Source: Nocardioides scoriae
GTDB lineage: Bacteria > Actinomycetota > Actinomycetes > Propionibacteriales > Nocardioidaceae
Assembly: GCF_900104965.1 (NCBI RefSeq)
Contig: NZ_LT629757.1
Location: 3,596,001-3,660,000 of the forward strand
Direction of reading: 5' to 3'
DNA: 64,000 nucleotides
Shown here in pieces: positions 60,468 to 64,000 of the stretch. Positions within the stretch are counted from its first letter, which is position 1, and every line of letters begins with the position of its first letter. The notes beneath the pieces are model-generated. The model was given only the letters and a program-made list of their open reading frames with translations, did no database searches and was not told the DNA's origin. A program made the position numbers and the translations under genes.

Positions 60468-60854
60468 TCAGCAGGCGCGGTCGCCGATGATCTGCTCGAG
60501 GCGGGGGATCAGGCTCCTCACCAGGTCCGACTTCTCCAGGTAGCCGTGGGCGCCGGCGTCGATCGCGCCGGGCCCGGCCGTCTCGAAGGGGTAGCCCGAG
60601 AGCATCACCACCAGGGCCTCCGGGGCGGCCTCGCGGATCAGGGGCAGCGCCTCCATCCCGTCCATCACGGGCATCGCGATGTCGAGCAGGACCAGGTCGG
60701 GCTGGTTGGCCCGGGCCTCGTCGACGGCCTCGCGGCCCTCGGTGGCGGTGGCGACCACGCGCCAGCCGTCGGGGTGGCGACGGATCACCATGCTGATGAG
60801 GTCGCGGAGGTCGTCGGAGTCGTCGACGACCATCACGTTGAGGGCTCCGGTCAT
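60468..60854 (-). CDS. receiver-only response regulator (Kai operon)
   Basis: A 128-aa single REC domain with no output domain. The acidic pocket is DDSDD (residues 11-15), the phospho-acceptor Asp58 is in LVLLDIAMPVMDG, Ser86 in VVMLSGYPF, and Lys108 in GYLEKSD. It is the last gene of the KaiC-KaiB-PAS operon, with its ATG overlapping the PAS stop by 4 bp. CheY-like receivers pass signals by protein contact. It may be phosphorylated by an unlinked kinase, because its PAS neighbour lacks a catalytic domain. Confidence 0.88.
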   Translation of the reverse strand: MTGALNVMVVDDSDDLRDLISMVIRRHPDGWRVVATATEGREAVDEARANQPDLVLLDIAMPVMDGMEALPLIREAAPEALVVMLSGYPFETAGPGAIDAGAHGYLEKSDLVRSLIPRLEQIIGDRAC

Positions 60855-61621
60855 GGTGTCTCCGTCCCGGTGCGAGCGGGTGCGCGTCGTACGGCGGTGC
60901 CGGGCTCGACCGACTGGCCCCCGGCCAGCTCGCCGATCCAGTGGCGGGCGTGGCTCGAGGTGCGGGCCACCAGGCTCCGGGCGAAGTCGGTCTGCCCGAG
61001 GTCGAGCGCCATCTCGGCGGCCACCAGGCCCTGCACGATGGTGTCGTTGACCTCCGCGGCCACGAGCATCCGCTCGGCGCGCGCGGAGTCGTCGGCGACC
61101 TTCTGCTCGACGAGCTTCTGCATGGTGAGGTCGGTGAAGACGAGGCAGCGCACGGTGACGCCCTCGACGTCGAGGTCGGTGGCGGCCACGAGCGTGGGCA
61201 CCTCCGACCCGTCGGAGCGCGGCACGGTCAGCTCGGCCCGGCGGGTGCCGGTCTCGCGCCCCATGAGCAGGTCGGCCAGGACCGGCAGCTGCTCCATCGA
61301 GACGTAGTCGGTGATGTCGCGCCCGGCCATGCTGTTGCGGTCGACGCCGAGGAAGTCGGCGATCTGGGGGTTGGCGTAGAGCACCACGCCGTTCTCCGAG
61401 ACCGTCACCGCGCCCTCGCCCATGTTCTCCACGATGACGCGGTAGGGCCGGTCGGCGCTGGTCAGCGTGTAGACCTGCTCGTGGTCCTCCTCGCCCAGCA
61501 CCACGGCGTCCACACCGGCGCCGCCGCCGATGGCCGCGAGGCTGCGCTGCAGGTAGGCCACCTGCTGGCGCAGCTCCTCGAGGTCGGGCTCGTCGTGCGC
61601 GGGACCGGGGCCGGCGCTCAC
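60851..61621 (-). CDS. PAS protein with degenerate DHp helix (Kai operon)
   Basis: A 256-aa protein. Residues 10-32 form a coiled coil ([20 protein letters not shown]), about 58-170 a PAS domain ([20 protein letters not shown], then [13 protein letters not shown]), and 175-232 a helical hairpin like a histidine-kinase DHp ([20 protein letters not shown]). At the position of the phospho-acceptor His in the family LHDxxxQ, residue 192 is Asn (VNDTIVQ). No ATPase domain follows. It appears to be a scaffold or sensor that dimerises. It is coupled by 4-bp overlaps to KaiB and the response regulator. Confidence 0.82.
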
Positions 61622-61959
61622 GTGCCGCTCCCGTCGGGCACGCGCAGCTGCAGGCCCACCAGCACCTTGTCGGTGTCGGAGAGGTCGCCGATGATCTTGC
61701 GGATCGGGTCGGGCAGCTTGCGCACCAGCGTGGGCACCGCGACGATCTCGTCGCCGCGCGCCAGGGCCGGGTTGACCAGCAGGTCGATCACCTCGACACG
61801 GTAGCGACCGGCGAGGTGCTCGTCGCACACCTTGCGCAGGTTCTCGACCGCGCGCACCGAGCGGGGCGACTGGCCCGCGACGTAGAGCCGCAGGTCGAAC
61901 ATCTGGCCGTCGGCGTCCGCCTCGGCGGTGGGCTCGCCGAAGCCCCAGGTCTGGCTCAT
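61618..61959 (-). CDS. kaiB: KaiB-family protein
   Basis: A 113-aa KaiB with the conserved thioredoxin-like core [20 protein letters not shown], then [20 protein letters not shown] and [20 protein letters not shown]. These match cyanobacterial KaiB closely, including the fold-switch segment. KaiB binds KaiC in the phosphorylated state. The ATG at 61959 gives a 19-residue N-terminal extension not seen in the cyanobacterial protein. It overlaps kaiC by 4 bp and the PAS gene by 4 bp. No kaiA gene is present. Confidence 0.92.
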
Positions 61960-63677
61960 CGTCGCGCTCCAGTCGGGGAGGAGTCCATCCGGTTGCGGTG
62001 CCGGGCGACCGAGGTGCGGGCCTCGTCGTCGCCGGAGGTGTAGGCCGCGTCGTCCGCGACCAGGTGGTCGAGCTCGTCGGCCTCGGCCTCGAGCTCGGCC
62101 CGCAGGGTCGCGATCTGGGCCTCGACGGCGGCCGTCCGCTGGGCCAGGGCGCGACGGCGGCGCTCCTGCTCCTCCACGCGCAGCCGCTGCGCGCTCTCGT
62201 CGCGACCGGCCTGCTCGAGGCGGGCCGAGCCGGTGAGCACGCCCTGCGGTCCGACGTACACCTCCAGCAGGCGGGGGCCGTCGTCGGTCAGGACGAACTC
62301 GCGCACCTGGTTGGAGTGGGAGGTGCCGCGGCTCTTGATGACGAACATCAGCCGGTTGCGCTCGCCGTTGGACTCCTGGTTGCGCAGCAGCAGCCAGGTG
62401 TCGACCAGCGAGGAGATCTCGACCTCGCTGCTCTCGGCGGCGGAGCCGCGGGTCAGGGTCGTCATCACCGAGGTCACGCCACGGCTCTTGAGCAGGTCGA
62501 GGTCGCGGGCCAGGACCGAGGCGGTCTGGTCCTGGGTGCCGCTGCGGCCCAGGCTCACGACGGCGTCGAGGACGGCCAGGGCCGGGTCCACCTCGTCCAG
62601 CAGGCGGTGGAGCTGGGCCAGGTGCTCCTCCAGCCCGAACGCCGTGGCCCGCACGGAGTGCAGGTGCAGCAGCCCGGCGTCGACCCAGCGCCGCAGGTCG
62701 ATGCCGATCGAGCGCATGTTGCGCACCAGCTGGAGCGGCGACTCCTCGAAGGACACGAAGAGCACCCGCTCGCCCTGGGCGCAGGCGGCTGCCGCCATCG
62801 CGGCGCCGATGCTCGTCTTGCCGGTGCCGGCGGAGCCGCTGATCATCATCGCCGAGCCGCGGTAGACGCCGCCCGCGAGCATCCCGTCGAGCTCGGGGAC
62901 GCCGGTCGAGACCCGCTCCTCGGACGCCTCGTAGGTCAGGCCCATCGAGGTGATGGGCACGACGGTCAGGCCGCGGGCGGTGATGAGGAAGGGGTACTCG
63001 TTGGTGCCGTGCAGCGAGCCGCGGTACTTGGTGATGCGCATCCGCCGCGTCGACAGGCCGTCCTCGACGCGGTGGTCGAGCACGACGACGCAGTCGGAGA
63101 CGAACTCCTCGATGCCGATCCGGGTGAGCTGGTCGGTGCCCCCGCCGCGCTCGCCGGTGATGACGACGGTGAGGTCGCGCTCCTTGAGCCACCGGAAGAG
63201 GCGGCTCAGCTCGCTGCGGACCACGGCGTGGTTGGGCAGGGCGGCGAAGAGCACCTCGATGGTGTCGAGCACGACCCGCTTGGCCCCGATCGAGTCGACC
63301 GCGAGCTGGAGCCGGAGGAACAGGCCGGTGAGGTCGAACTGCCCGGCCTCGACGAAGTCGGCCGGGTCGAGGTGGAAGGAGTCGATCGCCAGCAGGCCGT
63401 CGGCCTCGAGCTGGGGGAGGTCGAAGCCGAGCGAGGCGACGTTGGTCGCGATGTCGGCGGCGTCCTCCTCGAAGGCGAGCAGCACCCCGGGCTCGCCGTG
63501 GTCCGTGGCCCCGCGCACCAGGAACTCGATCCCGAAGAGGGTCTTGCCGGCGCCCGCGGAGCCCGCGACGAGGGTCGGGCGCCCACGCGGGAGACCGCCG
63601 TTGGTGATGTCGTCGAGGCCGGAGATGCCGCTGGGGCACTTCTCCAGGCTCGCCACACCACTCCCAGAGGTGCTCAC
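61956..63677 (-). CDS. kaiC: KaiC-family circadian-type ATPase
   Basis: About 573 aa. Two RecA-like lobes: CI with GSAGAGKT (residues 39-46) and FEED glutamates (70-71), and CII with GSAGTGKT (281-288) and FEES glutamates (311-312). The phospho-acceptor pair equivalent to Ser431/Thr432 is Ser422/Ser423 ([14 protein letters not shown]), followed by [15 protein letters not shown] coiled coil (485-542, [20 protein letters not shown]) forms the C-terminus in place of the KaiA-binding tail. The GTG at 63677 has a GGAAG site; ATG at 63698 is possible. First gene of the kaiCB-PAS-RR operon. Confidence 0.9.
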
Positions 63678-63698
63678 GTCGTCACTTCCTTCACTCAT

Positions 63699-64000
63699 TG
63701 CGTCACCGGACCCACCCGCGCAGTCTTCCTTGTCGATGCGGCGAGCGCGGCACTTTGACGAGGAACCCGCCCGACAATCGTCCGTCGCGGGCCCGGACGC
63801 GCAGACGGGGCCCCCGAGAGCACCGCTGCGCTTGCCTTCCCCTTGCGAACGCAGAAGTGGGTCTCGAGGGCCCCTTCTGCGCCGCACGCTACGGCTCCGC
63901 CGGTGTGTTGGTCAACGTCGGCGGCGCAGGTGGTGCCGCGGTTGTGCACCGCCTGTGGACAAACCTGTGGACGACGTGTGGAGGACGGTGTGGACGACGT
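63699..64000. other. 302-bp region upstream of kaiC, no convincing gene
   Basis: No convincing gene. It contains an inverted repeat (CGCAGAAG at 63850-63857 and CTTCTGCG at 63874-63881) and, at its end, four TGTGGA-type repeats. The kaiC promoter is expected here but no clear -10/-35 pair was found. A short minus-strand open frame (63695-63949) was rejected. Confidence 0.5.
63954..63997. repeat. four TGTGGANNA repeats resembling DnaA boxes
   Basis: TGTGGACAA (63954), TGTGGACGA (63966), TGTGGAGGA (63977) and TGTGGACGA (63989) recur at 11- to 12-bp spacing. The first is the exact complement of the actinobacterial DnaA box TTGTCCACA. They run to the window end and may continue. Confidence 0.55.

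Follow-up and report, generated by a model that had tools for sequence, protein, structure and literature searches.

The window analysed here, a 64,000-nucleotide stretch of the genome of Nocardioides scoriae (contig NZ_LT629757.1, positions 3,596,001 to 3,660,000), contains in its last 3.3 kb an operon of four minus-strand genes, kaiC-kaiB-PAS-receiver (63677-60468). As judged from alignments and profile comparisons, the product of the third gene is composed of a PAS domain and a DHp helix of the HisKA_3 type, from which both the phosphoacceptor histidine and the ATPase domain are absent, and it is probably a phosphatase directed at the receiver encoded by the fourth gene. Published work is cited by PMC number, from excerpts of the papers; genomes and loci used for comparison are designated by G and L numbers. 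The features of the operon are as follows.

61956-63677, minus strand: kaiC, 573 aa from the GTG at 63677, assigned to the Rhodobacter sphaeroides type by the Pfam ATPase match, the best solved match and the tree
61618-61959, minus strand: kaiB, 113 aa, Pfam KaiB 5.3e-26, best solved match 8fwj_M (2.5e-30)
60851-61621, minus strand: gene of a PAS adaptor and kinase-dead DHp protein, 256 aa
60468-60854, minus strand: gene of a receiver-only response regulator, 128 aa (Pfam Response_reg, nine-locus alignment)
62409-62414, minus strand: Ser-Ser phosphosite pair of KaiC CII (alignments and sequence)
62046-62210, minus strand: C-terminal extension of KaiC, residues ~497-551 counted from the ATG at 63698, in alignment with the coiled coil by which R. 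sphaeroides KaiC forms dodecamers
61022-61048, minus strand: NDTIVQGLV block of the PAS protein, with Asn at the position of the phosphoacceptor His, followed by D-x-x-x-Q (alignments, hhalign)

Genes of the operon and the KaiBC proteins

A preliminary description of this DNA reported four genes with a 4-bp overlap at every junction, and all of them were found, with the overlaps ATGA (61959-61956), GTGA (61621-61618) and ATGA (60854-60851); overlaps of the same sort are present at most junctions of eight related loci. Pfam matches were obtained for the KaiC ATPase (2.2e-103, two stretches), KaiB, PAS (9.2e-10) and Response_reg (4.2e-22), the last of which, in a protein of 128 aa, agrees with the receiver-only regulator described earlier. 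The GTG start of kaiC is kept in the close relatives L032 and L033, while an in-frame ATG 21 bp upstream (63698) is not. The same four-gene order, a search for which had been proposed, is present exactly in G002, G008, G009, L060 and L061, and G005 and G017 have this order plus a second kaiB; the closest named homologues are from Marmoricola and Nocardioides. The reported absence of KaiA was borne out, as PF07688 had no match in the single-contig genome of 4.06 Mb, while the Synechococcus elongatus control was detected by the same search. One KaiB and one double-domain KaiC are encoded in the genome, other matches to the ATPase family being short or weak.

Both ATPase lobes of KaiC, described as intact, are indeed so: the two RecA-like lobes contain the P-loops GSAGAGKT (residues 46-53, with E77/E78) and GSAGTGKT (288-295, with E318/E319), the catalytic Glu pairs included. 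The phosphosite pair S429/S430 is present and aligned to S413/S414 of R. sphaeroides KaiC; all these numbers are counted from the ATG at 63698 and are lower by 7 from the GTG start. In a search of all solved structures, the best match was R. sphaeroides KaiC, 8dba_A (582 bits, 1.1e-173, query 16-556), and this alignment includes the C-terminal extension of about 50 aa, that is, the coiled-coil tail, up to residue 556. The next different solved KaiC has 343 bits, and many entries, which we take to be of cyanobacterial species, have about 300-310 bits.

In the KaiC tree of 41 sequences, the window KaiC falls into a group of 28 together with R. sphaeroides, Pararhizobium, loci titled as cyanobacteria and other actinobacteria. 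The group is mostly coil-tailed, with shorter proteins in L030, L116 and L123, and is split with support of 100/100 from 13 short-tailed actinobacterial KaiC; the long branches of L122 and L037 were flagged, and the 8DBA fragment was excluded. The KaiC and KaiB sets exclude the same-genome duplicates L046, L054-L057 and L059, and the receiver set excludes L054-L057. Loci L036-L045, L103 and L105 represent another actinobacterial class, with kaiB followed by kaiC and a short-tailed KaiC of 36-38% identity; no match to the PAS adaptor was found beside their kaiB-kaiC, except for a weak one in L036.

KaiA is not required for phosphorylation by R. sphaeroides KaiC, which takes its timing from the ATP/ADP ratio (PMC10076222). 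By homology, the window protein would be a KaiA-independent KaiC of the R. sphaeroides type with timing driven by ATP/ADP. The earlier suggestion of an hourglass-type timer or an energy sensor fits well as an analogy, since the solved KaiC nearest to that of the window is the one that times by this ratio.

The KaiB domain is well above the Pfam cut-off (90.6 bits against 27) and below both NCBIfam KaiB equivalog cut-offs (98.5 against 110 and 94.5 against 145.3); its closest solved match is R. sphaeroides KaiB. Conservation of the fold-switch segment, also claimed previously, holds as far as the segment aligns, but of three indicator residues (K57/G88/D90 in S. elongatus, presumably K58/G89/D91 in the numbering of Thermosynechococcus elongatus) the window protein has E, G and Q, so that Gly alone is kept. 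R. sphaeroides KaiB has S, N and K, none of the three, and still switches fold (PMC11551320).

Genes of a second, divergent KaiB are located between kaiB and the PAS or kinase gene in L029 (5891-6235), L031 (7463-7804) and L134 (4827-5120), and also in L035; there is none at this place in the window. The second KaiB of L029 and L031 has 42-44% identity to the window KaiB, and the KaiB of the cyanobacteria-titled loci L063-L068 is nearer by identity to the second KaiB than to that of the window. KaiB is rare in the class, being found in 9 of 394 genomes at E < 1e-15 (44 at E ≤ 1e-3, 20 above the family cut-off).

The PAS protein and its histidine-less DHp helix

The third protein was previously described as a PAS protein. 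Its PAS domain is confirmed by Pfam matches to PAS and PAS_9, but a DHp-like hairpin at the C-terminus had been overlooked. In the AlphaFold model, built from 63 sequences (mean predicted local distance difference test score 80.9), the PAS domain at residues 55-163 is followed by a long helix (165-206) and a second helix (210-231). The top Foldseek matches are chimeras of LOV domains and histidine kinases (8a52, TM 0.40, 215 columns, 14% identity), and the VIA-align rows for this protein lie chiefly over the PAS part.

In the block NDTIVQGLV, the Asn, the Asp at +1 and the Gln at +5 are invariant in all 120 aligned members (taken from 325 homologues, the window's own being one of the 120) and in all nine loci, and they are kept in L060 and L061, the PAS proteins of which are 42% identical. 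Columns 189-206 contain 12 invariant positions out of 18, versus 12 of 109 in the PAS domain (63 sequences). Among the 19 codons of the block in the nine loci, nine vary synonymously only and three alter the amino acid, while N, D and Q are each encoded by a single codon. The block without histidine is the most conserved part of the PAS protein.

The helix was assigned to its class by profile comparison. Pfam HisKA_3 matches 29 of 32 members of the PAS-protein family (best 2.7e-4). In hhalign, the C-terminal profile matched ten HisKA_3 domains, nine from the same genome and one from L122, at 94.5% probability (E 7.9e-8), versus 0.9% for six HisKA domains. All nine HisKA_3 domains of the genome have His where the PAS-protein family has Asn, and L122 encodes, at a kaiC-kaiB-PAS locus, a kinase with a true His (ELHDTVTQ). 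No HATPase domain was found in the PAS protein by Pfam, and the protein ends 24 aa past helix 2.

The presence of the DHp helix led to rejection of a plain sensor, and the lack of both His and the ATPase domain to rejection of an ordinary histidine kinase. A LOV-type light sensor was also rejected, as the LOV cysteine motif was not seen by eye. Neither the KaiB-like N-domain of SasA nor the GAF and pseudo-receiver domains of CikA are among the Pfam and NCBIfam matches of the PAS protein, no genome-wide search for SasA or CikA having been made.

In HisKA_3 kinases, the D-x-x-x-Q motif is required for phosphatase activity, that of NarX is independent of its His, and in DesK the Gln is placed so as to position the attacking water (PMC5231405, PMC3510030). 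The DesK residues contacting the receiver, Q193, S196, L200 and D203, correspond in our own mapping, counted from the His, to Q196, V199, M203 and D206 in the 255-aa numbering of the PAS protein, and all four are invariant. The receiver has the acidic pair, the phosphoacceptor Asp, Ser/Thr (Ser in the window) and Lys in all nine loci. Since D-x-x-x-Q and the DesK-contact residues are invariant and the catalytic residues of the receiver are present in 9/9 loci, the PAS-DHp protein may be regarded as a receiver-directed sensor and probably as a phosphatase. The PAS and receiver genes had been considered a self-contained input/output cassette, but matched roles of input and output are not supported; the His-less helix likely makes the PAS protein the partner that faces the receiver. 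Among the sampled loci, the combination of a kinase-dead DHp and a lone receiver is confined to Nocardioides and Marmoricola.

Linkage to kaiBC and history of the site

KaiB was found in six of 24 congeneric genomes, the PAS protein was found in the same six, and both are absent from the other 18. All seven PAS loci of the genus adjoin kaiB, so the PAS protein belongs to the Kai module; its occurrence in contexts unrelated to kaiBC, which would have spoken against the link, was not observed in the genus. A chance neighbourhood was rejected, since the site and the order are shared with relatives. When at most 6 candidates per genome were scored in 396 genomes of the phylum, ten PAS-adaptor matches were found in nine genomes, and nine of the matches, including that of the window, are beside kaiBC. 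The PAS alignment led to 17 named loci, and at 13 of them, five of which are again the assemblies of G002, G005, G009 and G017, the PAS gene is accompanied by kaiC and kaiB. The remaining loci are L058, with kaiB remnants and 16.7 kb devoid of kaiC; L062, with kaiC pieces; L069, without kai; and L070, with a scar.

The output domains at kaiC-kaiB-PAS loci, named by eye from sequence, are diverse. The PAS adaptor is followed by a His-less DHp and a receiver in Nocardioides and Marmoricola; by histidine kinases, namely HisKA with a receiver (L102), others (L116-L118) and HisKA_3 with His (L122); by GGDEF-EAL (L030, L101, L104, L119, L120); by HD-GYP (L063, L064 and L068, titled as cyanobacteria, and L123); and by GGDEF (L065-L067). 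At L063-L068, titled Synechococcus and relatives, KaiC has a coiled-coil tail, and the PAS adaptor encoded along with KaiC and KaiB is joined to an HD-GYP or a GGDEF output. In L062 (6923-9605), from a metagenome-assembled genome of Actinomycetota, kaiC pieces and a kaiB-like frame are accompanied by a fusion of the PAS adaptor to a SpoIIE-like phosphatase, the end of which is kinase-like; a link of this fusion to the control of stress sigma factors is possible. Pararhizobium has kaiC-kaiB-kaiB' and a kinase-receiver. A tblastn search of plasmids with the PAS protein (E 1e-12) found none; it is insensitive to distant adaptors, because one listed plasmid does carry a PAS adaptor, with 2e-19 by pairwise blastp.

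A publication of 2011 describes kaiC-kaiB operons next to which genes of histidine kinases or GGDEF/EAL proteins lie (PMC3164672); they are similar in having a signalling gene after kaiC-kaiB, but neither Actinobacteria nor a His-less sensor is named in the text section and figure legend concerned. The PAS gene of the R. sphaeroides kai operon is already in print (PMC6627678), and the two strains of PMC8591293 are, according to the excerpt, without Kai homologues. In the literature searched, mostly without subscription papers but with PMC8591293, PMC11832031 and PMC10173096 among those consulted, neither the His-less version nor this operon in Actinobacteria was found to be described. The layout of kaiC, kaiB and a signalling gene is general and already published.

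In all seven kai loci of the genus, kaiC is divergent from a PHP-domain gene (named by eye). In 16 of the 18 kai-less congeners, the enoyl-CoA hydratase gene, which lies beyond the operon in the window, is located within 1.5 kb of the PHP gene, in the relative orientation of the window in 15 of them and with the PHP gene turned in G010; no close pair was found in G013 and G020. In the kai-less congener G012, pieces of the PAS and receiver genes are left between the PHP and enoyl-CoA hydratase genes. In the PHP-gene tree, where G017 is a bin with two kai loci, the kai loci need three changes, and G012 is placed beside a kai-bearing row. From the shared PHP neighbour, the G012 scar and this tree it follows that the operon has kept one site and was lost at least once.

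A scar of the operon in L139 (889-1104) and L070 (8001-8216) consists of a PAS fragment (residues 188-209) and a receiver fragment, located between the PHP and enoyl-CoA hydratase genes in a kai-less congener. In L058 (7144-9121), from Nocardioides psychrotolerans, there is no kaiC at the locus and the kaiB copies are truncated into one frame, with the PAS and receiver genes open.

One further element lies upstream of kaiC.

63807-63874, minus strand: conserved structured RNA hairpin between the PHP gene and kaiC (alignment, covariation, class search)

It has promoter-like, sigma-70-like elements, recognised by eye, with -35 at 63910-63915 and -10 at 63886-63891, an invariant loop, GCAAGGGGAAGGC, and covarying stems, in which 11 of 20 pairs are changed on both sides. 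Pairing was found in 94.5% of cells, versus 85.1% in shuffled and 31.6-52.1% in slid alignments, the structure having been derived from the same alignment. Of the 25 PHP loci in the genus, 22 have the loop motif (up to three mismatches), irrespective of the presence of kai, so the hairpin is outside the kai module proper. In the class, 45 of 148 genomes yielded a single copy each (E ≤ 1e-4); its neighbours, named by eye, are genes of PHP, enoyl-CoA hydratase or metallopeptidase-like proteins. For the window end, nothing in Rfam reached the gathering score; one match was at chance level (E 0.17), and none was found at E ≤ 0.01 in ten loci. The hairpin is a candidate for a new small RNA. An 11-bp repeat upstream of kaiC, considered as a binding site, was dropped, the element being this conserved RNA, present also without kai. 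DnaA-box-like repeats (TGTGGACAA and similar) are located upstream of the hairpin at ~63950-64000 on the plus strand of the window and are conserved in several relatives.

Output of the KaiBC system

The explanation favoured here, with about as much to be said for it as against it, is a KaiBC system of the R. sphaeroides kind that serves as a timer or energy sensor independently of KaiA and has as its output a kinase-dead sensor acting on a lone receiver. KaiC, a double ring with a coiled-coil tail, would, by homology, autophosphorylate its Ser-Ser pair and hydrolyse ATP without KaiA, tracking ATP/ADP, and KaiB would dock on the CI ring in the ADP state, as its homologues do. The PAS adaptor, associated with KaiBC by conserved linkage and order, would read the KaiBC state by direct contact. 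The DHp bundle, which cannot be phosphorylated, may dock on the adjacent receiver by its conserved helix face and dephosphorylate it by means of Asp and Gln, the signal being sent by stripping phosphate loaded by another kinase or a small phosphodonor. As the sensor has lost the kinase but kept the residues that dephosphorylate the partner, the timer probably signals by phosphate removal. The narrower proposal, a KaiBC timer with a dedicated phosphatase-only output, in which the docking and dephosphorylating face is kept, His and the ATPase domain are removed, KaiBC exerts control and the lone receiver is the substrate, is advanced tentatively, with the balance slightly against it.

Several points weigh against a phosphatase output. 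The homology to the HisKA_3 profile is restricted to helix 1 (34 columns); Pfam HisKA_3 does not match the window protein itself or the two most divergent members, L060 and L061, and all six member scores listed, of 13-20 bits, are below the Pfam cut-off of 24. A Foldseek search restricted to the DHp part gave no match at E < 0.001, the DesK-DesR complex 7ssj being at rank 45 with E 7.0. In the phosphatase complex of DesK, the ATPase domain adds contacts, and the window protein has no such domain. The PAS adaptor of L121 is away from kai. In L035 (15071-15613), the second kai locus of the metagenome bin G017 and one of the seven PAS loci of the genus, the PAS gene has an in-frame TAA, either by decay or by assembly error, and runs off the contig.

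This stop, together with the G012 scar, the lack of kaiC at the L058 locus and the 18 of 24 congeners without KaiB and the PAS protein, could indicate an operon that is being lost, the missing His being one more lesion. Such a decaying relic is largely refuted by the block itself, which is the most conserved part of the protein, with Asn in 120/120 members and mostly synonymous substitutions, and is therefore given very little weight. The flow of the signal could also be the reverse. DivL, for which we know of no link to Kai, is likewise a PAS protein with a His-less DHp that binds a response regulator. It has Tyr in place of His, keeps the ATPase domain missing from the window protein, and binds DivK~P without kinase or phosphatase activity (PMC4211667), a precedent that tells against a phosphatase here. 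By analogy, the DHp would read the phosphorylation of the receiver and relay it via PAS to KaiBC, so that the receiver sets the timer; here too the His has been lost while the residues that face the receiver remain. In the other kai-linked versions that could be read through, however, the PAS adaptor is fused to output enzymes, so the signal there probably runs away from KaiBC, and the phosphatase Asp and Gln, needless for a pure binder, are invariant. Reverse flow is considered unlikely, while retaining some plausibility.

Less probable again is sequestration without catalysis, in which a released helix bundle binds a partner, the receiver or a regulator, in one KaiBC state only. RpBphP1 ends in PAS9 and two DHp-related helices, with no kinase domain, and has PpsR2 as its partner in one of its light states (PMC6899989); the PAS domain at 55-163 and the helices at 165-206 and 210-231 in the AlphaFold model appear to resemble this PAS9-HOS plan. 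RpBphP1 differs in its phytochrome input and in its partner, a gene repressor (PMC6899989), and sequestration leaves unexplained the invariant receiver-facing Asp and Gln and the adjacent canonical receiver. DHp domains dimerise and nine HisKA_3 matches are present in the genome, which would allow the PAS-DHp protein to be a regulatory subunit, forming heterodimers with a complete HisKA_3 kinase from another locus and modulating that kinase; none of the nine is near the operon, and this role is regarded as improbable.

Among known systems, the KaiBC of R. sphaeroides (PDB 8DBA, 8FWJ; PMC10076222) is similar in the order kaiC-kaiB-PAS sensor (L133), the Ser-Ser pair, the coiled-coil tail and the absence of KaiA, and the N-terminal half of its sensor matches the window PAS protein (28.6% over 168 aa, 2e-11). 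The differences are that the R. sphaeroides sensor carries the annotation of an HWE histidine kinase and has no receiver gene after it, whereas the window has a kinase-dead DHp of the HisKA_3 type and a receiver. The bifunctional HisKA_3 kinases NarX and DesK share the DHp helix with D-x-x-x-Q and the receiver-facing residues, but the window protein has Asn for the phosphoacceptor His and no ATPase domain. The CikA-RpaA arm is similar, presumably in function only, as a KaiB-KaiC-dependent DHp protein lowering receiver phosphate: the phosphatase activity of CikA rises with KaiB and KaiC, but CikA is a complete kinase that also possesses GAF and pseudo-receiver domains (PMC6378743), both missing from the window protein, which is not a CikA homologue.

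How KaiBC systems lacking KaiA signal to the cell may be addressed with this operon, a small case of four proteins for which the closest KaiC is already solved. A phosphatase-only output, if true, would amount to the cyanobacterial SasA/CikA output pared down to a single arm in heterotrophic actinobacteria, and would mean that clock-like output can run by dephosphorylation alone. The PAS adaptor, common to the versions with kinases, GGDEF/EAL, HD-GYP and SpoIIE-like domains, would then offer a handle on the contact between KaiBC and its outputs in several phyla.

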